Source: a virus. From it: 28,609 bases of DNA. Positions 2,864 through 28,609 of this stretch are shown here, piece after piece. Under the pieces are notes generated by a model, which was given only the letters and a program-made list of their open reading frames with translations, made no database searches and was not told the DNA's origin. The translations under genes and the position numbers were made by a program. The stretch covers positions 1 to 28,609 of IMG/VR virus record IMGVR_UViG_3300045141_000328; one strand, given 5' to 3'. Numbering within the stretch: position 1 is the stretch's first letter; every line of letters starts with the position of its first letter.

Positions 2864-5800
2864 ATGCCTGGCACCATCCTCCTCGACGACCTGCGCTCGA
2901 GCATCGGCGACGAGCTGCGCTCCCACGCTCAGGGATTGCTGCAACTCGGCCAGGGCGCCGTCCAGAGCATCAACGATGCGATCCCCCCGCCGCCGCCGGT
3001 ACCCCAGGGTCCCGACCCCAACCAGATCCTGCAGGAGCTCCAGCAGCACGCCCAGCAGGCCGCGGCCGCTGCACAACCTGCCGTCCAGGTGCTCGGTGGG
3101 GCGCAACAGTCCGCGGGTGACGTGCTGCAGCAGCTTCAACAGCACGCGTCCAACCTGACCAGCGATGTCGGCCAGCAGTTACAGCAACACGTCAACAGTC
3201 TCACCCAGGGCGCGCAGGACGCCGTCCAGAGTCTGGCCACCCCACCACCGGCGCCACCACCACCAGCGACCACCACGCCATCGCTGGGCGGTCCGCCACC
3301 GTCAGACACGGGACCGGCGACCGTTGGTCAGGGCCAGTCGGCGTTCATCACCAGCCTGCAGGGCATGGCGCAGCGCGCAGCGGCGGCCACGGGCATCGAT
3401 CCCAACGCCATGCTGGCGATTGCCGCCAACGAGACCGGCTGGGGCCAGTCGTCCAACGCCCAGCAGCAGAACAACCTGTTCAGCCTGCAGGGTGACGGCA
3501 GCAACGGCTCGAGGTGGGCCAGCTACAAGAGCCCGCAGGAGTCGTTTGACGCGTTCATCAACCTGGTGCAGACCGCGCCGCGGTACGCCCAGGCGTGGGC
3601 CGATCGAGGCAACGCCAGTAAGTTCGTCGACGACCTGCGGAACGCGGGCTACGTGGTCGACGAGCCGGGCTACCCCGCGCAGGGATGGGTCGACCAGGTG
3701 AAGTCGATCTACGACCATCTGCCCCCGGCCGCACAGGGAGCGGTCAACGCGGTGCAGGGCGCTGGCCAGCAGGTGCTCGGCGCCGCTCGAGGTGCGCTCG
3801 ACACGGCGTCGACGGCGATGAACCAGTCCCAGTTCGGTGACCCGCAGTTGACGGCCGACGAGGCGTACGCGGCCTGCGGCCCCGCGGCCGCCGTCAGGTT
3901 CGCCGAACGTTTTGGACGTAACCCCACGCTCAGAGAAGCCACCGATCTGGCCAAGCAAGTGGGCTGGACCAGTGGCGGCGGTATGGCCGGCATCACCAGC
4001 GAGCAGCAACTGCTCAAGAACATGGGCGTCGATACGCACATTGTTGCGCCCGATTGGGATGCGATCGCCAAAGAAGCGCAGACGGGGAACCCGGTCACCA
4101 TCAGTACGCAAAATCACTACTTTTTCGCCGACGGCTACAACCCGCAGACGGGCGCGTTCCACGTGGGACGGTCGGGTCTGGACCTGAAAAACGGCAGCGA
4201 GTGGATGACGCCGACCCAGATGGAAAATCTGATGGGCCGCGCGCAGGGCGCCCTGTTCGCCGACAACCCTGCGGTACCTGCCTCGAGCACATCTCCCACG
4301 TCACTGGGCGGCACCGGTGGTGCATCCAACGCCCCGATCACCATTGGTGGGCCAGCCCCCGTGAAGGCGCCGCTGTACGTCAAGGGTGCCATGCAGGACG
4401 CCAACGGCAACGTGGTCGCCGACCAGGGGCCAACGCCCATCCAGTCTGCCGCGGACGTGCTCGGCGGCGCCGCCGGCGCAGTCGGCGAAGCGGTCGGTGG
4501 CGCGGCATCGGCACTGGGCTCGGCCGCGCAGGGTGCGCTCGCTCAGGCCACCGCGCCCGTCCAGCTCCAGCCCGGCCAGGTGTCGGCGCGCGACCAGGTC
4601 AACCAGGTGGCCAGTGACGTGCAGCAAGCCGCGCAGGGCGTGCTGGGCGCGGCACAGGACGTCAACCGGATGACGCCTGGCACAACGGCAGTCAATGCGG
4701 TAGCGCCCGTTTTGGGGGCCGCTGCAAGCGATCTGGGCACCACGGCTCGAGGTGCGGTAGACGCCACCGTTCCCGTGCTCGGTGGTGCGGCCAGTGATCT
4801 CGGCACCCAGGCGGAGGCGTTCGCGCGGTCGCCGGTGGGTCAGCGTCTCTTACAGGCCGCCGCGGAGAATGCCCAGGAGGGGCCGTCGTTGATCCCGGCG
4901 GGCACGATGAGCCTGTACCGCGACGTCATGCAGGTCAAGAACGATTGGCTCGAGCAGAACAACCCGCTCAACAACCTGCCCGGCGCACGGCCAGAACCAG
5001 GCCACGAGGGCGACATCACGCCCGGCGGATTGATCGCGGGTCTGACCACGGGCATCGCGCAGCAGTTCACCGACCCGTTGATGCTGGCGTTGCTGGGGCC
5101 GACCAGTGGTGTGGCTGAAGCGGGCACGGGCGCTCTCAGTGGCGCGGTGAGCCGCATCGTCGGGCCGCAACTGGCGGAACGGCTGTCGCCCGGCGCGGTC
5201 AGCGTGCTCGGCACGATCGCCCAGAAGTTTTCGCAGGGCGCCATCGTGGGCGGGCTGCAGAACGCGATGTTCGAAGCCGAGAAGAAGGAGAGCACGCCCG
5301 AGTCGGTGGGCCAGGCGCTGGTGGTCGGCGCAGGGTTGGGCGGGGTGATCGACGTGGGCGCGGCCGGCGTTGCACAGGTCGTACGCCGTCTGGGCCAGGT
5401 GCTGCTCGACAACGCCCCACAGATCACCGAGGCCTTGCGCTCCTCGAGGCTACCCGCCCAGACCACCGTCAACAACGCGCTGGGCGGCGTGCCGGAATTG
5501 GCCGCGCGGGCTCGAGGCGAAGCGACCCCGGTCGCGCCGACGGCGCCCGCAACTGAAGCTGCACCGCTGCCACCGTCGACGGCGGTCGGTCGCCAGCGAT
5601 TACCGAACTATCCCGCGGACACGCCTGAGGGTCGGTTCGAGGCCATCGCGCGACCGTTGCGCGAGGCATCGCCGGATGGCTTGCTGCATCTCGATCTGAA
5701 CACGCTGCCGCAGGACGTGCTGCCGCTTGACAGGAACGTCGCCAAGAGCTCGGCGAACGGGTTGGTCAAACTGGCGCCGGGCGGCATGCCGAATACAGAC

Positions 5801-8800
5801 GACCTGCGCGCGCTGTACGAGGCCAACCCTAACAAGCGCGACTTCTACTACGACCAGGCAGACCAGGGAATCCCGACCGTCGGCGCGCACAACCTCGAGG
5901 AGTGGTTCGCGCTGAACGCCATCAGCAGCATGCAGACCAACGTCACCGGCCAGGTGTCGGAGGCGGCGAAGGTCTTCGGCATGGTGCGGCAGATCGCGCA
6001 GGAAGGTCGTCAGGCAGGACTGTCGCCGCCTGAGATCAAGGCCAGCATCCTGAAGGCGGTCAACGACTACACGTACGGTGGTCCCGCGGGACCGAACAAG
6101 CGCATCGCCATGAACCGTGGCTATGCGACTGGTATTGCCGATACGGGTGGGCCGAAGACGCCGTCGTTCGCGGGCAACTACGGTTCTGCCGAAGCGCGTC
6201 TCTACGACCCGGCGATTACCAACGACATATGGAACTGGCGCACGATGAACATCGACACCAGCCAGACTCCAGCGGTGCGCGGTGGCAAGACGTACATGGA
6301 TTCGCCGCACGAGTCCGCCGCGGCCAACAACAAGAACCTGTACCGCGGTGTCGAGGCGGTCTTCAACGAGCTCGGTGCGGAGCAGGGGGTTGACGGGTTC
6401 GCGTTCCAGTCGTCGGTGTGGGACGGTATCCGCGCGATGGCTGAGGGTGCTCCCGAGGCGTACGCCAAGTGGAAGGCGGGCGACTTCCAGGGCGCCATCC
6501 GCGATGCCAAAGCCGCGGGCGTCTTCGACCGGCCGATCGGTAAAGTTGGTGCGCCCGAGCCGGGCGAGATCTCGCGGGCGATGCAGCAGCCGTCGGTAAA
6601 GGCGGCGTTGGCGCAGTACGCGCCGTATCTGCACGATCCCCTTCCGCCAGAGCTGGGGATACCGTCGGTGCAGCGTGCGTTCCTGGGTGACACCAGGAAA
6701 GCGTCGGGCACGCTCCGACCCGCGACGCACGAGTTCCGTAACGCGCAGCGCGGGCTGCAAGAGAGCAACGCTCCGATCGTGCGCGGCGTGCCCGGCGGTG
6801 TGCTCGATCGATTAGGGGTGGACGAACGCGGGGTGATGCCGTGGCTGGCAACCGCGCACCGCGTGGTCGAAGAGACGCCAGGGAACTACGTCGTGCATCT
6901 GCCGTCGGGCAACAGCGACACCGCACGGTACGTGGCGGCGACCATCGGCGACGCGCTGAAGGCGCCGGAGATGGCGATTCACTATCCCGACTATCGGGCG
7001 CCGGACGCCGCGGGACTGAGCCTGGTGGCTGACAGGGCGACGCTGGATCGTGTGCAGGCGGCGCTGGCCGCGGATGGTCACCCGACGGTCAGAGGCCCCA
7101 CTGGAGGGTCGCTGCAGATACCCCTGTATGACATGGAATCGGCGCCTCGTGTGGTAGAATCTCTCAAGAATGCGGGCGTCGATCCCGCGACGTTAGATAG
7201 GTACAACGGGACCAATGAGCGCATCCAGGCCGCAGACTATGCACGAACTCTTGGATCAACTGGGAGTCGGTTCGAACCGACTACCGTCGAGCGACGCAGT
7301 CTACTCGAGCGGGCCAAAGGTGGTCCTTCCGAAGCAGGAGCCGTCGAAGGCACCGGCTCTGCGGCCCCACCCGGAGGCGGCGCCGCCTCCCCCGCCAGGG
7401 GTGGGCTTCGAGGCTCCCGAGAGCTAACCCCGCCACCGCGGACGCTGTACCACGGCACGAGTGCCGACTATCCGTCGGTTGAGCCGGGGCAGCGGGCCTT
7501 CGAAGGCGAGAACTCGCTCGGTCCTGGTCACTATCTGGCAACTGACCCAGGCGTTGCCTCCGGGTATGCCGAACGGGCGCAGAACCCGGAAAGTATCGAG
7601 GGGTTCCAGGGTCAGGGTGCGAATGTTCGCAAGGTCAACGTGCCAGCGGACATGCGGCTGTTCAATATCACCCAGACTGACCGTGACCTGGCCGCGCCTG
7701 AAATCACGCGCATTGCCGACGTGCTCGAGCGGCAAGGTGGTGTCCGAGCGGGCGAAGCGGTCAATGAACTTCGCTATCTGGCCGGGATTGCCGATCCTTC
7801 TGCGAAGCTCGGTGGTGATGCCTCGCCGAACGCGGTGTTTGATGCGATGGCGTCGCGGGGGGTTGAGCCGCGAACGATCAGTTTTCTGTTGCGGAAACTG
7901 GGGTATGAAGGCATCGAGCACATCGACTCTCTGGATGGGGCGCACAACGTCCTGGTCTTTCCCGAGGCGACGAACCGTCTGCAGAACGCCATCAGTGGGC
8001 GGCAGGGCGGCCAGGCCCAGGTGCCGTTCGGCATCAACCTCGCGGGTGGTGTTGCTGGCGGTTACGCCGGTAACCTGGCAACACCCCAGGACGCGTCACC
8101 CGAAGAGCGCCTGAGAAACATCGGGCTCGGGGCAACCGCGGGGTTGCTCGGTACGCATCTGATCACCCGCGGTGGTGCCGGTCCCCTCTTGGAACGCGCC
8201 GTCGCGGGTGTCGGCCGCGAGGGTGAAGCCGGCTTCCGCGCACCAGAGACGCGCCCGACACTCGAGGAGCAACTCGCGCGGGCAGCAGACCGGGGTCCAC
8301 GCCCCGGCGAGAATCTGCTGCGGGCCACCACCGAAGAGCGGCCACCACCCAGCGAGGAGCCGACCCGCCAGACCGTGCGCGGTGTCGAACCAGGCACGCC
8401 GCGGAACATCGGCGAGGTCGTCACCAATCCGCATCTGCTGGATGCGGCTGGTCCTGGCGAGACGCCGATGACGATGGACGAGCGCCTCGCCCATCAGGAC
8501 ACCCTCGAGCAACGCTACCAGGCCAACCAGGACCGTCTGGCCGCCATCGACGAGCAGCTGCGTAATCCTACGCAGAAGCCTGAGCGGCCGCCGTGGGGTG
8601 CGGGCTACACCAACGACAACCTGGTCGAGATCGCCCAGCAGCACGGTCAGAGCGCGTACGACCCGTTGTGGTGGGAGAAGGCCGGGCTGGACACCGGGTC
8701 GGGCGAGGTACGTCTCGACGTCGGCCAGAGTGGTATCCGCGGCACCGGGACGCGCGAGCCCACGCCGACCGAGTTGCGGGCGGAACGCAACACGCTGGCG

Positions 8801-11800
8801 CTCGACCAGCGCCACATCGAGGCCGCGGGCGAGCAGCAGGCGAATGCGCCGGACGACGCACAGTTCGCCCGCCGCGGCCAGCGTGCTGCAGACCTGCCGT
8901 TCGCGGGTGGCGAAGAGAACGCGCCGCACGGTCCGTACGCGACCGAGCAGGCATCGTCCGGTCCAGGCTCGCTGGCCGAAGACATCGTCACCCAGAACGG
9001 CCGCAAGAGCTACGGCGACCCGCTGAGCGGCGACGGGCTGCGCGAAGCGCCCGGCGAGGTCATCGGCACCAGAGGCGGCGTGACCGGGCGTGGCATCAGC
9101 GACGCCGAAGCGGCCAACGTGCCGCCACCCAGCGAAGCCACCCTCAAGCGGATGCCGAACCTGGACGCCATGCTGAAGGGCGCCATGCCCGAGGTCAGGG
9201 CACAGATCCAGCGCGCGGCCGAGGACAACCCCGAGCTGTTCGACGCGTACACCCAGGGCCGGATCTCGCACGACTCGCTGGTGAACGACCTGGCCACCAA
9301 AGTGGGCATGACGCGCGACGAGTGGCTGAAGACGCCTGTCGGCAAGGGTTTCAATCCGCAGGAGATGGTGGCGCTGCAGGCCGCGGCTATCGATGCCCAG
9401 GCACGGTCCGAGAAGATGGCCAGGGACATCGTCGCCAGGGGCGGGGTGGATGCGCTGTCGGACGAGCAGGTCGCGTACGGGCTCAACGAGCTCTCCAAGA
9501 ACACCCAGTTGCTGACGGTGGCCAGGGGTGGGCGCAGTACGGCGGGCCGCACGCTGGAGTCGCTGAAGAATCGGCTGGACGCGACGATGGCGCGCGGCAT
9601 CAACGCTAGCAACGAGCGCATCGGCGCCCAGCGCATTGCCGACCAGGCCAAGCGGGCGACGGCTCGCGCAACGCAGCTTCTGGAAAAAACGCGCGAGATG
9701 GATGTCGAGCAGAAGACCGCGGTCGCCACGGCGCGGTCGAACGGGGCGCCGAAGAACATCCTCGATCAGATCGCGGCCGCGTACGACCAGCTCGATCGCT
9801 ACAACGCCATGACGCTGCACGAGAAGGCTGACGACTTCAACGCGCTGAAGGCTGCGCGCGATGCCGCGGCGGCGAAACGTCAGGCGGCGGTGCGGGAGCC
9901 GCCCCAGGAATTGCTGAGTGCCTTGCAGGCGGAGCTCGCCGCGGAGCGTAAGAACTTTGCCAACCGCAAGAACACGTGGGAAGACATGGCGTTCTGGGAT
10001 AGCAAGGCCAACGAGATCGCCGCTGAGAAACGCAACGCGTTCCGCGGGGGTCTGTACATCGAGCAGTACCGCAAGAGTGCCGACCTGGCCGCGAAGTCGG
10101 CCGAGGCTGATGCGAAACGCGCGTTCGACCTCGAGTCGAAGCGCCAGTCACTGCAGTCCCAACGCGCGAGCAGCGTGCTCGAGGCGGTGGGTGGCCAGAA
10201 GCCGTCCCGAGAATTGCTCGCCAGCTACGTCAAGGCGATCACGTCCGACGATCCGCTGGCCGCGGGCAAGTTCATCAAGGGCTTGCAGCAGCAGGGCTGG
10301 TGGGGCCGGTCGCAGATCGTGCGTATCGCGGGGCTACTCAGCTCCACGGTCACCCATATGGCCAACATGGTCGGCAACATCAGCCAGGTGCCGCTCGAGG
10401 TCGCCACGCACGGCATGGTGGTGGGCATTGACTGGGCACGCGCGGCGGCCACTGGTGGTGAACGCCAGGCGTACATGGCTGAGCTCGGTCCGATGCTGGA
10501 GGCGTACGGCCCAGGCTTTCTGTCCAGCATGCCGGACGCCCTCAAAATTCTGCAGACCGGCATCTCGCCGGACGACCTGGTGAACCTGAAGAACATGCGG
10601 CCAGGTCTGGCGTCCGGGTCGGAGAAGCTCGACGCGGCCGTGGAGATGCCGCTGCGATTGCTGCAAGCTGAAGACCAGGTGTTCAAGGGTGGCGCGTTCG
10701 CCATGCAGGCGAACCGTGTGGCGACCCGCTATGCGGTCCGCGAAGGGTTCCGCGGCGAGCAGATCAAGGGGCGCACGGCGAACATCGTCAAGAATTTCGA
10801 GGAGTACCCCGAGCTCTACAAAGAGGCGCACGACGCCATGCTGCGGATGGTCTTTCAGGAGCACCGCGACTGGATACCGTCGCCGCGTGGGGCCGCGCAG
10901 GGCGTCGTGTCGCAGCCGCTGCCGTTCATTCGGACCCCAGCCAACATCACGGCCCAGGGCGGGGGTCTGTCACCGTTTGGGCTGGCCGGCACGGTCGCCG
11001 CGGTGCGAGCCCGCGGCGCATTGCAGACGGCAGGCGGCGCAACGTCAGCGCAACTCGGGCGCGCGACTTTACTGGCAGAGCAGCGCCTCGCGCGTACGGC
11101 GCTGGGCACGGCCATTGTGGGCATGGGCGTCGGGATGGGGGCCGGCACGTTCAGTGGTGGCAAGAGCATGCTGACCGGCGCGTACGACCCCAACGAAGCC
11201 AGCACGTACCCGCAGGGGTGGCGCGAGTGGTCGGTGGTCACCCAGGACCCGGTCAGCGGGAACACGTACTACGTGCCGATGCAGAATTTTGGAGCTGCCG
11301 GTGCGCCGCTGGCGATGGCGGCCATCCTGACGGACGCGGGCAAGCGTGGGCACAGCCTGCTGGATAAGGACGAGGCGGCTCGAGCGGCGACCAGCATCGG
11401 CCAGTACGTGCTCGACAACACGTTCCTGCAGGGCCTTTCAGATACGGTCAACGTGTTGCACGACCCGAGTCGGTACGCCAATAAGTTCCTCGAGAGCCTG
11501 GTGAGCAGCTATGGGCCGTATTCGGCGATGGGCCGCCAGATTCAGCGGGCCTACGGGGTGGCCAGCCGCAACCCGCACGATGGCTTCGTGGGGCTGGTCG
11601 AAGCGATGGAGTCGAACTATCCAGGGCTGAGCGGCAACGTGCCCGAGTCGTTGACGGCGATCGGCGAGCCGCGGACGCAGGGCATCTCTGGCGCAGCGGC
11701 GTTCGCCTTGCCGGTCCGAGCCGACATCCTGCGCGACGAGCCCACGCTCAAGGCGTTGCGCGACAACGATGTGCGGATTCCGCCGGCGCCGAAAGCGGTC

Positions 11801-12106
11801 AACGTGGGCAATGGCTGGTCGGTCGATCTAACGCCAGAGGAGCAGGATCAGTTGCAGCGGTCGCGCGGCGAGATCATCCGCCAGCAGGTGGCCGCGGTGA
11901 TGGGGTCATCGCTCTATAAGGACGGCGACATCAGCGTACGGAACCAGTTGTTGTCGAAGGCGATCAGCAACGCGTCGCAGAACAGCGACGTGCTGTTTAC
12001 GCGGACGTTGTCGCGGGCTGATTTGCAGTCCACCACCGCGGGCGGACGCGCGGTCCGTCGTACCGTGCCGACGCCATACACCGTGGCAGGAGAGGACGCA
12101 GCCTGA
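2864..12106 (+). CDS. Giant multidomain polyvalent virion protein (glucosaminidase, C39-like peptidase, ADP-ribosyltransferase-like)
   Basis: A 3,080-residue protein, probably packaged in the virion and ejected with the DNA. Visible parts in order: an Ala/Gln-rich helical N-terminus; residues about 158-287, a FlgJ-like glucosaminidase or lysozyme fold (AANETGWGQS, then NNLFSLQG); residues about 328-470, a C39-like cysteine peptidase with Cys338 in YAACGPAAA and His418 in QNHYFFADGY; residues about 975-1215, an uncharacterised module with EEWFALNAISSMQ and SPHESAAANNKNLY; residues about 1525-1705, an ADP-ribosyltransferase-like fold with LYHGTS (His1530), GPGHYLATD (Tyr1557) and a closing HNVLVFPEATN; then charged coiled coils to about 2480; and residues about 2485-2800 with SSTVTHMANMVGN and PFIRTPANI plus a glycine-rich hydrophobic segment near 2743-2766. 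Such mixtures fit the polyvalent proteins described for phages and conjugative elements. The stop overlaps the next ATG. Enzyme activities are inferred from motifs. Confidence 0.85.
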   Translation: MPGTILLDDLRSSIGDELRSHAQGLLQLGQGAVQSINDAIPPPPPVPQGPDPNQILQELQQHAQQAAAAAQPAVQVLGGAQQSAGDVLQQLQQHASNLTSDVGQQLQQHVNSLTQGAQDAVQSLATPPPAPPPPATTTPSLGGPPPSDTGPATVGQGQSAFITSLQGMAQRAAAATGIDPNAMLAIAANETGWGQSSNAQQQNNLFSLQGDGSNGSRWASYKSPQESFDAFINLVQTAPRYAQAWADRGNASKFVDDLRNAGYVVDEPGYPAQGWVDQVKSIYDHLPPAAQGAVNAVQGAGQQVLGAARGALDTASTAMNQSQFGDPQLTADEAYAACGPAAAVRFAERFGRNPTLREATDLAKQVGWTSGGGMAGITSEQQLLKNMGVDTHIVAPDWDAIAKEAQTGNPVTISTQNHYFFADGYNPQTGAFHVGRSGLDLKNGSEWMTPTQMENLMGRAQGALFADNPAVPASSTSPTSLGGTGGASNAPITIGGPAPVKAPLYVKGAMQDANGNVVADQGPTPIQSAADVLGGAAGAVGEAVGGAASALGSAAQGALAQATAPVQLQPGQVSARDQVNQVASDVQQAAQGVLGAAQDVNRMTPGTTAVNAVAPVLGAAASDLGTTARGAVDATVPVLGGAASDLGTQAEAFARSPVGQRLLQAAAENAQEGPSLIPAGTMSLYRDVMQVKNDWLEQNNPLNNLPGARPEPGHEGDITPGGLIAGLTTGIAQQFTDPLMLALLGPTSGVAEAGTGALSGAVSRIVGPQLAERLSPGAVSVLGTIAQKFSQGAIVGGLQNAMFEAEKKESTPESVGQALVVGAGLGGVIDVGAAGVAQVVRRLGQVLLDNAPQITEALRSSRLPAQTTVNNALGGVPELAARARGEATPVAPTAPATEAAPLPPSTAVGRQRLPNYPADTPEGRFEAIARPLREASPDGLLHLDLNTLPQDVLPLDRNVAKSSANGLVKLAPGGMPNTDDLRALYEANPNKRDFYYDQADQGIPTVGAHNLEEWFALNAISSMQTNVTGQVSEAAKVFGMVRQIAQEGRQAGLSPPEIKASILKAVNDYTYGGPAGPNKRIAMNRGYATGIADTGGPKTPSFAGNYGSAEARLYDPAITNDIWNWRTMNIDTSQTPAVRGGKTYMDSPHESAAANNKNLYRGVEAVFNELGAEQGVDGFAFQSSVWDGIRAMAEGAPEAYAKWKAGDFQGAIRDAKAAGVFDRPIGKVGAPEPGEISRAMQQPSVKAALAQYAPYLHDPLPPELGIPSVQRAFLGDTRKASGTLRPATHEFRNAQRGLQESNAPIVRGVPGGVLDRLGVDERGVMPWLATAHRVVEETPGNYVVHLPSGNSDTARYVAATIGDALKAPEMAIHYPDYRAPDAAGLSLVADRATLDRVQAALAADGHPTVRGPTGGSLQIPLYDMESAPRVVESLKNAGVDPATLDRYNGTNERIQAADYARTLGSTGSRFEPTTVERRSLLERAKGGPSEAGAVEGTGSAAPPGGGAASPARGGLRGSRELTPPPRTLYHGTSADYPSVEPGQRAFEGENSLGPGHYLATDPGVASGYAERAQNPESIEGFQGQGANVRKVNVPADMRLFNITQTDRDLAAPEITRIADVLERQGGVRAGEAVNELRYLAGIADPSAKLGGDASPNAVFDAMASRGVEPRTISFLLRKLGYEGIEHIDSLDGAHNVLVFPEATNRLQNAISGRQGGQAQVPFGINLAGGVAGGYAGNLATPQDASPEERLRNIGLGATAGLLGTHLITRGGAGPLLERAVAGVGREGEAGFRAPETRPTLEEQLARAADRGPRPGENLLRATTEERPPPSEEPTRQTVRGVEPGTPRNIGEVVTNPHLLDAAGPGETPMTMDERLAHQDTLEQRYQANQDRLAAIDEQLRNPTQKPERPPWGAGYTNDNLVEIAQQHGQSAYDPLWWEKAGLDTGSGEVRLDVGQSGIRGTGTREPTPTELRAERNTLALDQRHIEAAGEQQANAPDDAQFARRGQRAADLPFAGGEENAPHGPYATEQASSGPGSLAEDIVTQNGRKSYGDPLSGDGLREAPGEVIGTRGGVTGRGISDAEAANVPPPSEATLKRMPNLDAMLKGAMPEVRAQIQRAAEDNPELFDAYTQGRISHDSLVNDLATKVGMTRDEWLKTPVGKGFNPQEMVALQAAAIDAQARSEKMARDIVARGGVDALSDEQVAYGLNELSKNTQLLTVARGGRSTAGRTLESLKNRLDATMARGINASNERIGAQRIADQAKRATARATQLLEKTREMDVEQKTAVATARSNGAPKNILDQIAAAYDQLDRYNAMTLHEKADDFNALKAARDAAAAKRQAAVREPPQELLSALQAELAAERKNFANRKNTWEDMAFWDSKANEIAAEKRNAFRGGLYIEQYRKSADLAAKSAEADAKRAFDLESKRQSLQSQRASSVLEAVGGQKPSRELLASYVKAITSDDPLAAGKFIKGLQQQGWWGRSQIVRIAGLLSSTVTHMANMVGNISQVPLEVATHGMVVGIDWARAAATGGERQAYMAELGPMLEAYGPGFLSSMPDALKILQTGISPDDLVNLKNMRPGLASGSEKLDAAVEMPLRLLQAEDQVFKGGAFAMQANRVATRYAVREGFRGEQIKGRTANIVKNFEEYPELYKEAHDAMLRMVFQEHRDWIPSPRGAAQGVVSQPLPFIRTPANITAQGGGLSPFGLAGTVAAVRARGALQTAGGATSAQLGRATLLAEQRLARTALGTAIVGMGVGMGAGTFSGGKSMLTGAYDPNEASTYPQGWREWSVVTQDPVSGNTYYVPMQNFGAAGAPLAMAAILTDAGKRGHSLLDKDEAARAATSIGQYVLDNTFLQGLSDTVNVLHDPSRYANKFLESLVSSYGPYSAMGRQIQRAYGVASRNPHDGFVGLVEAMESNYPGLSGNVPESLTAIGEPRTQGISGAAAFALPVRADILRDEPTLKALRDNDVRIPPAPKAVNVGNGWSVDLTPEEQDQLQRSRGEIIRQQVAAVMGSSLYKDGDISVRNQLLSKAISNASQNSDVLFTRTLSRADLQSTTAGGRAVRRTVPTPYTVAGEDAA

Positions 12107-16218: not shown

Positions 16219-16984
16219 TAGTACGGTATAGGCACCTAACGCAGCTCAAATGCGGGGAAGCCCTAAGAGCCTTCGAGCCTGATTAGGGAAGAGTGCGAAG
16301 GATGGAGCAATGGGTAATCCGCAGGCGAAAGTTTCAGATATCGAGTACGGCTGGTTAGCCGGGTTCTTTGACGGTGAGGGTTCTGTGGTACTGACGATTC
16401 GTCCCAGCGCAGGCAAGAACGGTGGACCCAAGGTCCAGCCGATGGCGCTGCTCGCTGGGACAGATCAGGCCGCGCTGGATGCAATCACGAGCATCCTCGA
16501 GCGTGTCCAGGTCGGGCATCACGTCGCATGGGCCATTCCCAGGGGCACTGCTCGTAATGGCAATGCCTACAAACGTGCCTGGGCTGTTCGTCTCGTGGGA
16601 CTCAAACGAACCCAACGTTTCGTCGAATGGATCTTGCCCGCGCTGCAGACGAAGCGCGAGCGGGCCGAGTTGGTGCTGCAGTACATCGCAGCGCGTTTGG
16701 CTCATAGCGACTTCCGCACGCCGATCCAGCCCGAAGAGTGGGCGATGGCAATGCAGATGAAATTGCTCAACAGCAAGACCCAGCCGTTTACTCGAGAAGT
16801 CACCTTGAACACCGAACCAGCCGGGCTCACTTCAGAAGAGGCTCGGGTGCGTGGCATGAAGGGCCACGCCGTTCGGTGGGGTTACGCTGATACTAGCCTC
16901 AACGACCCCACGCTGCGCTTGCCCATCTGAGTGGGCAATGAAGGTAGAGTCTGCTCTTACATAAAAGTGTAAGCTAACAACAGG
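16219..16984 (+). ncRNA. Group I self-splicing intron in the major capsid gene
   Basis: 766 bases. Helices paired by hand: P1 GGTGCT 16213-16218 with GGCACC 16231-16236 (terminal U-G wobble at the 5' splice site); P3 CGCAGC 16240-16245 with GCTGCG 16912-16917; P4 TGCGG 16251-16255 with CCGCA 16319-16323; P5 CCCTAA 16261-16266 with TTAGGG 16283-16288; P7 CA(AC)GAC 16900-16906 with GTCTG 16949-16953, leaving a two-base bulge; P8 TTGCCCA 16919-16925 with TGGGCAA 16932-16938; P9 CTTACA 16956-16961 with TGTAAG 16968-16973. Their order matches the group I core. The P and Q strands AAATGCGGGGAA and AATCCGCAGGC resemble the conserved elements. The terminal G is 16984; the first exon 2 bases ACC could pair with GGT 16225-16227 as P10. 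Exon frames join without a shift. Splicing itself is inferred. Confidence 0.85.
16310..16930 (+). CDS. LAGLIDADG homing endonuclease, intron-encoded
   Basis: A 206-residue protein with one LAGLIDADG motif near residues 13-24 (YGWLAGFFDGEGSV), so it would act as a homodimer. The motif's acidic residue (D in FFDGEG) is present. The segment FVEWILPALQTKRERAELVL fits the alpha-helical part that follows in this family. It should cut intronless capsid alleles near the exon junction and spread the intron. GGATGGAG lies a few bases before the ATG. The coding region starts just before the P4 3' strand and its stop TGA lies in the P8 loop, so it overlaps P4, P7, P3 and P8 of the ribozyme. The C-terminal 25 residues encoded by core sequence may be poorly constrained at protein level. 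Confidence 0.9.
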   Translation: MGNPQAKVSDIEYGWLAGFFDGEGSVVLTIRPSAGKNGGPKVQPMALLAGTDQAALDAITSILERVQVGHHVAWAIPRGTARNGNAYKRAWAVRLVGLKRTQRFVEWILPALQTKRERAELVLQYIAARLAHSDFRTPIQPEEWAMAMQMKLLNSKTQPFTREVTLNTEPAGLTSEEARVRGMKGHAVRWGYADTSLNDPTLRLPI

Positions 16985-24836: not shown

Positions 24837-25300
24837 CGATGACCGCACTGGGCGTGCCGACTGGGGGCAAACCCATCACCCTCGGCCAGTTGGAAGGCGA
24901 GTTGAACGCCGCTGGTGTGACCATGTCTGGCCTGGGCATGAGTGACGAGCACGTGTACACCTACGACGCTGCAGGACAACCTGCTGACTTCGAGACCGGG
25001 GCGCGCTCCACGGTCGATCAGATCGTTGCGGACCACATTGCCTTACGCGACAGGACCGACGAGGAATACGCGACCGAGTTTCAGGATGCAGCGACGACGG
25101 CGGTACGCCGTCAGGAGATTCGGGATATCACGGCGGGCCTGCTGCCGCGCGAACAGGTCAGGGTGGATAACGGGCAACCCATCGATCAGCCGGTACCGCA
25201 GGCGGATCCGCTGGAGGCAATCAGGGCCGTGCCGCTCGGATCAACGACGGACGAGCTGCGCGACGCGATCGTGGCCTACCTGGAGCGGTTCGGTGGCTGA
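24833..25300 (+). CDS. Hypothetical fibre-associated protein
   Basis: 155 residues, coupled by ATGA to the fibre gene. The N-terminal part reads LGQLEGELNAAGVTMSGLG; a helical, charged middle (STVDQIVADHIALRDRTDE) and a C-terminal helix (TTDELRDAIVAYLERFGG) follow. No motif is recognised. A gene following a fibre gene is often a fibre assembly or attachment protein, which is a positional inference only. Confidence 0.6.
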   Translation: MTMTALGVPTGGKPITLGQLEGELNAAGVTMSGLGMSDEHVYTYDAAGQPADFETGARSTVDQIVADHIALRDRTDEEYATEFQDAATTAVRRQEIRDITAGLLPREQVRVDNGQPIDQPVPQADPLEAIRAVPLGSTTDELRDAIVAYLERFGG

Positions 25301-25475
25301 GTACAACATCGGACCAGGGGTCGCCCAGGCGATGGCCGAGGCGGGCGATGAGCCGAGGAGCTCGGAGCAGTTCATCATCTTGCTCGAGGGCGACAAGATC
25401 TCGCAGACGTTCGGCCGCGACAAAATTTACTACTGGATCGAGAGGGATAACGTCGTCAGGACGTCCCCCTTTTGA
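25293..25475 (+). CDS. Lysis protein N-terminal part (0 frame, upstream of frameshift)
   Basis: A 60-residue reading from GTG 25293 that overlaps the previous gene by 8 bases. It begins MAEYNIGPGVAQAMAEAGDE and ends YYWIERDNVVRTSPF before TGA 25473-25475. The downstream peptidase reading is one base ahead and has no start codon before its catalytic cysteine, so the two parts are best joined by a +1 shift at CCC TTT TGA. I recall similar N-terminal segments in single-chain proteins of high-GC bacteria and phages but cannot name a family. Confidence 0.7.
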   Translation: MAEYNIGPGVAQAMAEAGDEPRSSEQFIILLEGDKISQTFGRDKIYYWIERDNVVRTSPF

Positions 25476-25476
25476 T
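25464..25476 (+). promoter_or_regulatory. Candidate +1 frameshift site (TCC CCC TTT TGA)
   Basis: In the 0 frame the codons are TCC CCC TTT TGA. A Phe tRNA on TTT 25470-25472 can re-pair on TTT 25471-25473 without a mismatch, with a UGA in the A site. This is the same arrangement as the RF2 autoregulatory site (CTT TGA). No stem-loop was verified downstream. Confidence 0.55.
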
Positions 25477-25956
25477 GTTGTCGAAACAGCGACCACCTGG
25501 GATCCGCAGACCCAGCAGCCTGCTCAAATTTATGACTGGAGCTGCTCATCGTGTGCGACAGAATGGACCGAGCGCGCGGTCTGGGCTGCGCGGTCGGCCG
25601 ACATCTACGCCAACCGTGAGGCGGTTACGTATGCGATCGGCTACCCGTCGAACATCAGCTCGGCACTGGGGCTGCATGACGGCAGTGGTGTGGAGCTGCA
25701 GCGAGTGCTACGCGAGCACGCCGGCCTCGACACCGAGCAGGGCTGGTTGTCATTCGACGAGGCCTACGAGCGGTACAGCCACACGCTGGGGCTGATGAGT
25801 GGGCAGCGGATGTACCACTGGGTTTCGGTTCGCGGAATTTCTGGCTCGAATCTCTGGATCGCCAATAGCGCGCCTGGCTATATGGGGGTTTGGGACATGC
25901 TCAGCCGCTACGACTACGAACGCCTGGGCGGCTGGTCCTGCATCTGGGTCGTGTGA
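25474..25956 (+). CDS. Cysteine-peptidase-like lysis protein, +1 frame part
   Basis: 160 codons, read after the frameshift as DVVETATTWDPQ onward, giving a fused product of about 220 residues. A cysteine pair in DWSCSSCATEW sits where the catalytic Cys of papain-like or C39-like peptidases lies, and MYHWVSVRGI followed by LWIANSAPGYMG supplies the usual His and the following Asn-containing strand. It probably cleaves peptidoglycan peptides as the endolysin, given the holin-like gene 10 bases downstream. An alternative is that the frame break is a sequencing indel in the C5T4 run, or a decayed gene. Confidence 0.6.
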   Translation, partial: DVVETATTWDPQTQQPAQIYDWSCSSCATEWTERAVWAARSADIYANREAVTYAIGYPSNISSALGLHDGSGVELQRVLREHAGLDTEQGWLSFDEAYERYSHTLGLMSGQRMYHWVSVRGISGSNLWIANSAPGYMGVWDMLSRYDYERLGGWSCIWVV

Positions 25957-25966
25957 AGGAGACGCT

Positions 25967-26119
25967 GTGAATATTGCGATGCCACCGATAACCGTGGGGT
26001 TAATCCTGGCGATCATCATCTTAATTTTGGCCGTCATCGGCCTGGTCGGCGTACTGCCGTTGAACCCGCTGATCATCTTCGGGATGTTCGCCGGGCTGGC
26101 CATTTCCAGAATGGTCTGA
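25967..26119 (+). CDS. Holin-like two-helix membrane protein
   Basis: 50 residues from GTG 25967, with AAGGAG at 25956-25961 five bases upstream. Residues about 7-30 (PITVGLILAIIILILAVIGL) and 33-47 (PLIIFGMFAGLAI) are hydrophobic and separated by a short turn with Pro and Asn. Small size, two membrane segments and its place right after the peptidase gene fit a holin. The hydrophobic run could instead be a spanin-like or pinholin element. Confidence 0.7.
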   Translation: MNIAMPPITVGLILAIIILILAVIGLVGVLPLNPLIIFGMFAGLAISRMV

Positions 26120-27728: not shown

Positions 27729-28609
27729 CTAGTGGCTATGCGCCGCACGGCGGGCACACTGGGTGCAGTGAAACGCACGGACGTTGCCGGTGCCCTTGAA
27801 GGGGATCGGATGGGCGTGCACGCCGTTGCCCAGCCACTGCTCGGCGAGTGACGCGCGTCCGGCGCGATCGGCGATGATCGATTGGGCGAAGTGGACGTAG
27901 TCGGCCGTTACCTCGTGGCTGAGGTGGCCGACGATGCGTCGCAAGCCGATCTCATCACCTGGGAACGCCACCAGATACCACGTACAGAACGTGTGGCGCA
28001 GCCGATGGGCGATGGGGTTCAGAACCCCCGCGGCCTCGCCGAGGCGTTGGATGATGCGGCTGGCGCCCTCCGATGACAGTGGCCGGCCTTCGTGCGACAG
28101 GAACAGGCGACCGGCGTCCTTACCGTGAGCGGGGCGAATGGTGAGATACGCGCGCAACGCGCGCACGGTGCAGCCGCCGTCACGTTTTGAGCCGTCGCCC
28201 ATGGGCACCAGGCGTTCGCGGCGGCCCTTGCCGTCTCGGCCGACGAGCGCCTGGCGCTGATCGAGGCGCAGGCGATCGATCGTCAGCGTGGCGGCCTCGC
28301 CGATGCGCATGCCAGTGTCGAGCAGCAACAGGAAGAGGGCCTCGTCACGAGCCGCGGTACGCGAGGAGCGGGCGACGCCCCACATGGCGTTGACCTCGAT
28401 CTGGGTGTAGGGCTCGCGCAGGATTTTGCCGACCCGCGGCACGCTCAGCTTGCGCAGCGTGTCGTCCGGGAGAATGCCCTCGCGCTCGAGGAAGCGGGCG
28501 AAGGTTTTGGCGCGTGCGGCCAGGGTGCGGACGCTGACGGCGCCATGGCGGGAGCTGGCGGGGTTGACGCGATCGCGGTACCAGGCGAGGACGGCGCGGA
28601 CGTTGTTGG
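27729..28609 (-). CDS. int: Tyrosine recombinase (phage integrase), N-terminus beyond window
   Basis: About 293 visible residues, open to the window edge; a GTG at 28442 would start after the core-binding domain, so the gene is read as partial. The upstream part (VRAVLAWYRDRVN, VRTLAARAKTFARFLEREG) is a SAM-like core-binding domain. The catalytic set is present: Arg in DTGMRIGEAATL, Lys near DGKGRRERLVPM, His-x-x-Arg in HRLRHTFCTW, His in VGHLSHEV and Tyr in TADYVHF. After the tyrosine there is an unusual tail of about 45 residues that ends FHCTQCARRAAHSH, with a CxxC pair and two late His residues. It would integrate or excise the phage genome. Confidence 0.85.
   Translation of the reverse strand, partial: NNVRAVLAWYRDRVNPASSRHGAVSVRTLAARAKTFARFLEREGILPDDTLRKLSVPRVGKILREPYTQIEVNAMWGVARSSRTAARDEALFLLLLDTGMRIGEAATLTIDRLRLDQRQALVGRDGKGRRERLVPMGDGSKRDGGCTVRALRAYLTIRPAHGKDAGRLFLSHEGRPLSSEGASRIIQRLGEAAGVLNPIAHRLRHTFCTWYLVAFPGDEIGLRRIVGHLSHEVTADYVHFAQSIIADRAGRASLAEQWLGNGVHAHPIPFKGTGNVRAFHCTQCARRAAHSH

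Follow-up and report, generated by a model that had tools for sequence, protein, structure and literature searches.

The window analysed here, a stretch of 28,609 nucleotides from IMG/VR virus record IMGVR_UViG_3300045141_000328, very probably carries a single modular endolysin gene in which programmed +1 ribosomal frameshifting, favoured by an RNA hairpin, would yield both a free N-terminal module (N-module) and the full endolysin. By computation we found a conserved frame break, an invariant slip codon, a covarying hairpin, a domain boundary at the site itself, and a swap of the catalytic module behind it, and it is on these that the reading is based.

All parts of the gene lie on the forward strand. 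The 0-frame open reading frame (25293-25475) begins with a GTG at 25293, which overlaps the end of the preceding gene and falls in a start column common to the relatives, and it reads 60 codons (VAEYNIGPGV...VRTSPF) before the TGA at 25473-25475. The +1 frame (25474-25956) then encodes the predicted C39/papain-like peptidase module (C-module) in 160 codons (25474-25953), ending in a TGA at 25954-25956, and alignment places the catalytic codons at 25525 (Gln78), 25543 (Cys84), 25816 (His175), and 25864 (Asn191). The slip site, CCC TTT TGA, occupies 25467-25475, and the C5T4 run around it (TCCCCCTTTTGA) spans 25465-25473. On slipping, the P-site UUU would re-pair on UUU one base further on, with GAT as the next codon, and the fused product is predicted to contain the junction-spanning peptide ...TSPFDVVETATTWDPQ...

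Searches of IMG/VR with the downstream peptide, the fused alignment, and the N-module returned 10, 72, and 80 loci, respectively, and removal of duplicates left 74 distinct loci, the window included (73 further from IMG/VR). Neither the cultured phages nor the GTDB genomes that we searched contained relatives. A +1 shift is needed in 59 of the 74 (again with the window), while 7 have a −1 geometry and 8 are continuous. The sequence-only reading of this DNA had proposed +1 recoding at CCC TTT TGA, and the proposal is borne out by a +1 break at the same residue in 58 distinct loci besides the window, down to about 40% identity, with the reservation that these loci are related by descent and the counts are therefore not independent. 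As its main competitor that reading had named a homopolymer indel at C5T4; were this an error of base calling or assembly, the true gene would be continuous. The run does resemble a homopolymer and some relatives are continuous; nevertheless, 58 other loci from many samples have the break at that very codon, including forms in which the run is only CCCTTTC, and the hairpin described below is found with the shifted genes and not with the continuous ones. This effectively rules out an indel, to which we give next to no probability.

Both halves behave as coding sequence. Nucleotide changes pile up at third codon positions, first of frame 0 in the N-module (4429/3923/9526 at positions 1/2/3) and then of frame +1 in the C-module (3062/1969/6141), which indicates that both frames are under protein selection. 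In addition, the trans-frame protein aligns with the naturally continuous proteins through the junction residues PF, and length differs only in the linker that follows them. A decaying endolysin gene would account for a broken frame, but hardly for the invariant catalytic Gln, Cys, His, and Asn, the third-position bias in both frames, or the recurrence over a deep tree, and decay can practically be dismissed. As far as sequence comparison goes, the frame break is confirmed as genuine and conserved, and not due to chance.

TTT occupies the P site in 59/59 of the +1 loci, with T or C as the next base in every one, whereas elsewhere in the first 49 of the +1 genes TTT makes up 18% of Phe codons (46/258). 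CCC fills the E site in 52/59, the others having CCG, TCG, TCT, TCC, GCC, or GTG; since this codon varies, the P-site codon is the constant part, and the common factor is the predicted re-pairing of tRNA-Phe from UUU to UUY. The A site holds UGA in only 34 of the 59 loci, CGG in 12, CGA in 8, and other codons in 5. Thus 25/59 have a sense codon there (CGG, CGA, CGT, CGC, CTC, CCG, or CCT; CGN in 22/25), and in these one to three sense codons precede the stop. As to whether the A site is slow, through a stop or a poorly decoded codon, the picture is mixed: CGA is rare among the Arg codons of the relatives' genes (5%) and CGG is not (18%), and the +1-frame amino acid also constrains the A site.

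These A-site data bear on whether the shift reports the supply of release factor RF2, as in prfB-like autoregulation. Such a role would suit the UGA directly after UUU in 34/59 loci and the in vitro finding that a hairpin effect required the absence of RF2 (PMC6321510). The UGA and sense-codon classes, however, are intermixed across the tree, whose well-supported branches require 10 or more label changes, and because 25/59 loci have a sense A site, mostly CGN, RF2 cannot be the shared signal. We regard autoregulation of this kind as quite unlikely, and the tie to release-factor levels suggested in the sequence-only reading is not general. The likeness to the RF2 recoding site, also drawn there, stands as regards the U run before UGA and falls as regards the stimulator, in that an RF2-type Shine-Dalgarno is absent and a hairpin is found in its place. 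No Shine-Dalgarno-like sequence upstream of the slip site is common to the relatives, and an RF2-style Shine-Dalgarno was dropped as the shared stimulator; the prfB arrangement itself (CUU_UGA with the Shine-Dalgarno AGGGGG 3 nt upstream) is not seen, the codon here being UUU.

The window hairpin (25450-25464) pairs ACGTC (25450-25454) with GACGT (25460-25464) around the loop GTCAG, ends 5 nt before the P-site TTT, and has a z of −2.2 against a synonymous-codon null, in which sequences are recoded synonymously using the relatives' own codon usage. In the relatives the stem, typically of 5-7 bp, lies 5' of the E-site codon and usually leaves 3-5 nt between its last pair and TTT. Over the first 49 +1 loci the mean z is about −1.6; it is about −1.5 in the UGA class and −2.2 in the sense-codon class, as against −0.5 to +0.1 at five control offsets drawn from the same sequences, where the signal is absent, and +1.15 in the continuous genes, which lack the hairpin; kinship of the sequences limits the independence of these counts. 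The stem covaries across the relatives. The two halves of each sequence's own stem pair at −6.8 kcal/mol, compared with −4.5 (sd 0.26) when 3' halves are re-dealt among sequences (0/300 as low), and compensation can be followed beneath a fixed amino-acid string such as ATRR, encoded as GCC ACC CGG CGA or as GCG ACC CGT CGC. A clear hairpin is absent at some +1 loci (L024, L031, and L047).

Slippage by RNA polymerase at the C/T run, producing a mixed mRNA pool, is another way in which frame could be restored, as transcriptional slippage is able to do. Runs like TTT or CCCTTT are too short for the usual bacterial transcriptional slippage, however, and the runs here come down to just those lengths; moreover, covariation in the hairpin and codon choice in frame 0 both indicate translation, and we hold polymerase slippage to be very unlikely. 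For programmed frameshifting during translation there is a published precedent. With 70S ribosomes, a hairpin refolding beside the E site stimulated +1 shifting and opposed −1 shifting, as a mimic of the helix that the RF2 mRNA forms through its Shine-Dalgarno (SD), and upstream refolding hairpins stimulate +1 shifting in yeast too (PMC6321510). The place and presumed direction of action of the hairpin fit that work. In the 70S system the effect at CUU UGA was seen only without RF2 (PMC6321510), and for that reason efficiency at UGA sites could be low.

The two parts might instead be separate genes, with translation of the peptidase beginning either within or close to the N-module, or re-initiating at its stop. 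In the distant relative L083 (4645-5462) a true LGFP open reading frame (24.2 bits) and the separate one of a related peptidase overlap by GTGA, much like ordinary translational coupling, and many relatives have an ATG in the peptidase frame (the Met of an MP.Q motif) 46-76 nt after the slip. That ATG, however, is not conserved and is missing from the window. The sequence-only reading had stated that no start precedes the catalytic Cys, which is correct for the interval between the TGA and Cys84 (zero ATG, GTG, or TTG) but not upstream of it, where the +1 frame is open as far as 25171 and contains a single ATG at 25348, its only start before Cys84. This ATG lies out of frame inside the conserved GDE codons of the N-module and is not conserved as a start. 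The open +1 frame of 6/58 loci has no ATG, GTG, or TTG before the Cys, and in a number of other relatives it opens just 11 nt 5' of the slip codon. Two genes would also leave the invariant TTT-Y, the hairpin, and the in-frame fusions unexplained, and we think this arrangement unlikely.

The assignment of the C-module to the C39/papain-like cysteine peptidases is by fold only, with modelled structures matching the C39 peptidase of PCAT1 (6mpz; E 1.3e-4, TM 0.74 on the target) and PeiR (2.2e-5), and a Gordonia phage endolysin in a viral library. Gln78, Cys84, His175, and Asn191 are invariant in 43 sequences and stand in the order found in papain; the Pfam C39 profile gave no match above cut-off for the window or for L018. 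L018 is a naturally continuous relative, and its AF2 model was built with an alignment of plainly translated fragments of other relatives. It shows two domains (pLDDT 89.5) in which residues 60-66, at the junction, form the sole stretch below 50. The shift point is thus a linker between two folded modules in this model, and in-frame relatives naturally encode the same two-domain protein.

For the N-module a cell-wall-binding role of the LGFP type is probable, as a lead. Modelled alone (AF2, pLDDT 90.6), its best fold matches are both to MytA (6swz, Z 6.3 over 55 aligned residues at 2.3 A; 6sx4, Z 5.7 over 52 at 2.2 A), with the caveat that all Z values are below 8 and may reflect only a common arrangement. 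MytA, the mycoloyltransferase A of C. glutamicum, is the solved LGFP structure, and its LGFP repeats take part in cell wall binding (PMC11299179). The lead is strengthened by L083, in which a true LGFP open reading frame is paired with the related peptidase gene. Profile searches returned little: Pfam and PHROGs had no match to either half of the window gene, the Pfam LGFP repeat (PF08310) matched 0/31 N-module members, the N-module profile was not significant against the LGFP frame of L083, a PDB-sequence profile search with the N-module gave chance immunoglobulin matches only, and Foldseek with the N-module alone found nothing significant.

The clearest pointer to function comes from two relatives, L078 (5001-5722) and L081 (4995-5719), in which an Amidase_2 domain (E 6e-17 and 3.5e-15) stands behind the same N-module in place of the peptidase. 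Their junction reads CCT TTC GAA/GAG followed by a stop, with Amidase_2 in the −1 frame, so that the break is retained across the swap and the second frame can be taken as an exchangeable peptidoglycan-hydrolase module. Directly downstream in the window is a 50-residue hydrophobic, holin-like open reading frame with a GTG start (25967-26119, forward strand), and a small hydrophobic holin-like frame of this kind adjoins the enzyme gene in most loci, the amidase-swapped ones included. The swap and this neighbour together identify the two-frame gene as encoding a modular phage endolysin, with predicted muralytic activity, and with the Cys/His peptidase fold they uphold the earlier call of a lysis enzyme.

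The direction of the shift has changed repeatedly. On a protein tree of 70 rows, the four states require 16 changes, 4 of them for the −1 state and 3 for the continuous state, and each −1 change stands beside a +1 or continuous relative. The 7 loci of −1 geometry have C CCT TTY at the site, which is a tandem −1 heptamer of the classic type. Most of these loci, among them most of L041, L050, L051, L057, and L070, keep the upstream hairpin, which is a misfit with the mechanism, since such hairpins are reported to oppose −1 shifting. Of the shifted relatives, L022 is nearest to the main continuous clade, and its GTTCCCTTTTGAG is one base away from the clade's GTCCCTTTTGAG. As evidence that would tell against recoding, the sequence-only reading had named homologues that lack the slip site and have an unbroken frame. 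Continuous genes do exist (8), but all of them (genes named: L012-L018, L027, L082, and L132) keep a C_CCU_UUY run with a −1-frame stop after 0-1 codons, lack the hairpin, and have many shifted relatives around them. These in-frame lineages show the frameshift to be dispensable. Their C_CCU_UUY could be a relic of a shifted past, or it could signal reversed polarity, as in dnaX, whereby the full enzyme would be made by default and slipping by −1 at this run would lead to the stop after 0-1 codons and hence to a short form. Reversed polarity would fit the retention of the −1-frame stop in 8/8 continuous genes and the loss of the hairpin that would oppose −1 slipping. We suggest, tentatively and as a possibility rather than an expectation, that selection keeps a two-product output while the route to it flips: a +1 slip at UUU-Y, where a hairpin pushes forward, a −1 slip that takes place at C_CCU_UUY, or reversed polarity in the continuous genes. 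The hairpin would then be a natural bacterial +1 stimulator.

The slipping itself, its efficiency, the action of the hairpin, and the use of the short product we infer as follows. A ribosome on the N-module frame would arrive at UUU with UGA (in relatives, UGA or mostly CGN) in the A site. Ribosomes that stop at the UGA would release the free 60-residue N-module, whereas in a fraction the peptidyl-tRNA-Phe would slip one base forward, from UUU to UUY, helped by the hairpin as it refolds in the wake of the ribosome, usually at 3-5 nt 5' of the P-site codon, the place taken in the RF2 mRNA by the Shine-Dalgarno helix. Slipped ribosomes would go on to make N-module plus peptidase, that is the full endolysin. 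The gene would in this way fix how much wall-binding subunit is made relative to full enzyme and limit the dose of the latter, and a set ratio of the two is the likely benefit.

Programmed +1 shifting and two-product endolysins are each already known, and several systems invite comparison. As at the CUU_UGA of prfB (RF2), the P-site tRNA would slip forward onto a U beside UGA, with a duplex a few nucleotides behind the P-site codon; unlike prfB, the codon is UUU, the duplex is an intramolecular hairpin rather than an SD:anti-SD helix, many relatives use CGN and not a stop, and the product is a phage enzyme. The UUU_CGN of influenza A PA-X and the Amalgaviridae, likewise with tRNA-Phe moving from UUU to UUC and CGN in the A site, recurs as UUU_CGN in 22/25 sense-codon relatives. 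Those, however, are eukaryotic RNA viruses, and PA-X has no evident stimulator (PMC5009743), whereas we are dealing with bacterial DNA phages and a 5' hairpin. The Listeria phages PSA, A118, and A500 are also dsDNA phages, in which +1 shifts give a second product and +1 and −1 are exchanged among relatives (PMC5009743); there the proteins are those of capsid and tail, with a Pro codon in PSA, and here we have a lysis enzyme and a Phe codon.

Among endolysins, Lys170, CTP1L, CD27L, and LysP7951 each produce from one gene a full enzyme together with extra free wall-binding subunits that set activity, and the full-length subunit of internal-start endolysins can be inactive alone (PMC9430671, PMC4777826). 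The window gene is predicted to share this output of full enzyme and free binding subunit. Theirs arises when translation starts internally and yields the binding domain of the C-terminus; in the window gene the two parts lie in different frames, leaving no in-frame internal start for the second, and because the binding module is N-terminal, early termination would give the short product and the shift the long one. A Lactococcus phage lysin of two overlapping genes (Shearman 1994) is cited by PRFect among known frameshift genes. Mycobacteriophage LysA proteins combine modules of the same kinds, N5 (C39-like), Ami-2A, and LGFP, with binding modules at the C-terminus and no frameshift mentioned (PMC3314691).

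None of the papers that we searched described a conserved UUU-Y site combined with a natural 5' hairpin and with a slip direction that changes repeatedly. If the reading is true, a lysis enzyme can be added to the few phage genes in which +1 shifting is used, and a known two-subunit endolysin design has a new route. Among the relatives, a single protein backbone also comes naturally with different A-site codons, hairpins, and slip directions, which makes it testable whether an upstream RNA hairpin can serve as a natural bacterial +1 stimulator in place of a Shine-Dalgarno helix. For annotators, the frame break explains why such lysins would be split or missed by gene callers.

Elsewhere in the window, a 3080-residue protein (2864-12106, forward strand) has a Glucosaminidase domain (E 9e-20) with a weak C39-like peptidase match beside it, and PHROG matches to endolysin and internal virion proteins, as of a second, virion-type wall-degrading protein. 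On the reverse strand at 27729-28607 is a phage integrase (PF00589, E 6e-27) cut off by the right end of the window. It points to a temperate phage, although the GTDB genomes searched contained no prophage relative. An HNH endonuclease (16310-16930, forward strand; phrog_5046, E 2.8e-11) lies directly ahead of the major head protein gene.
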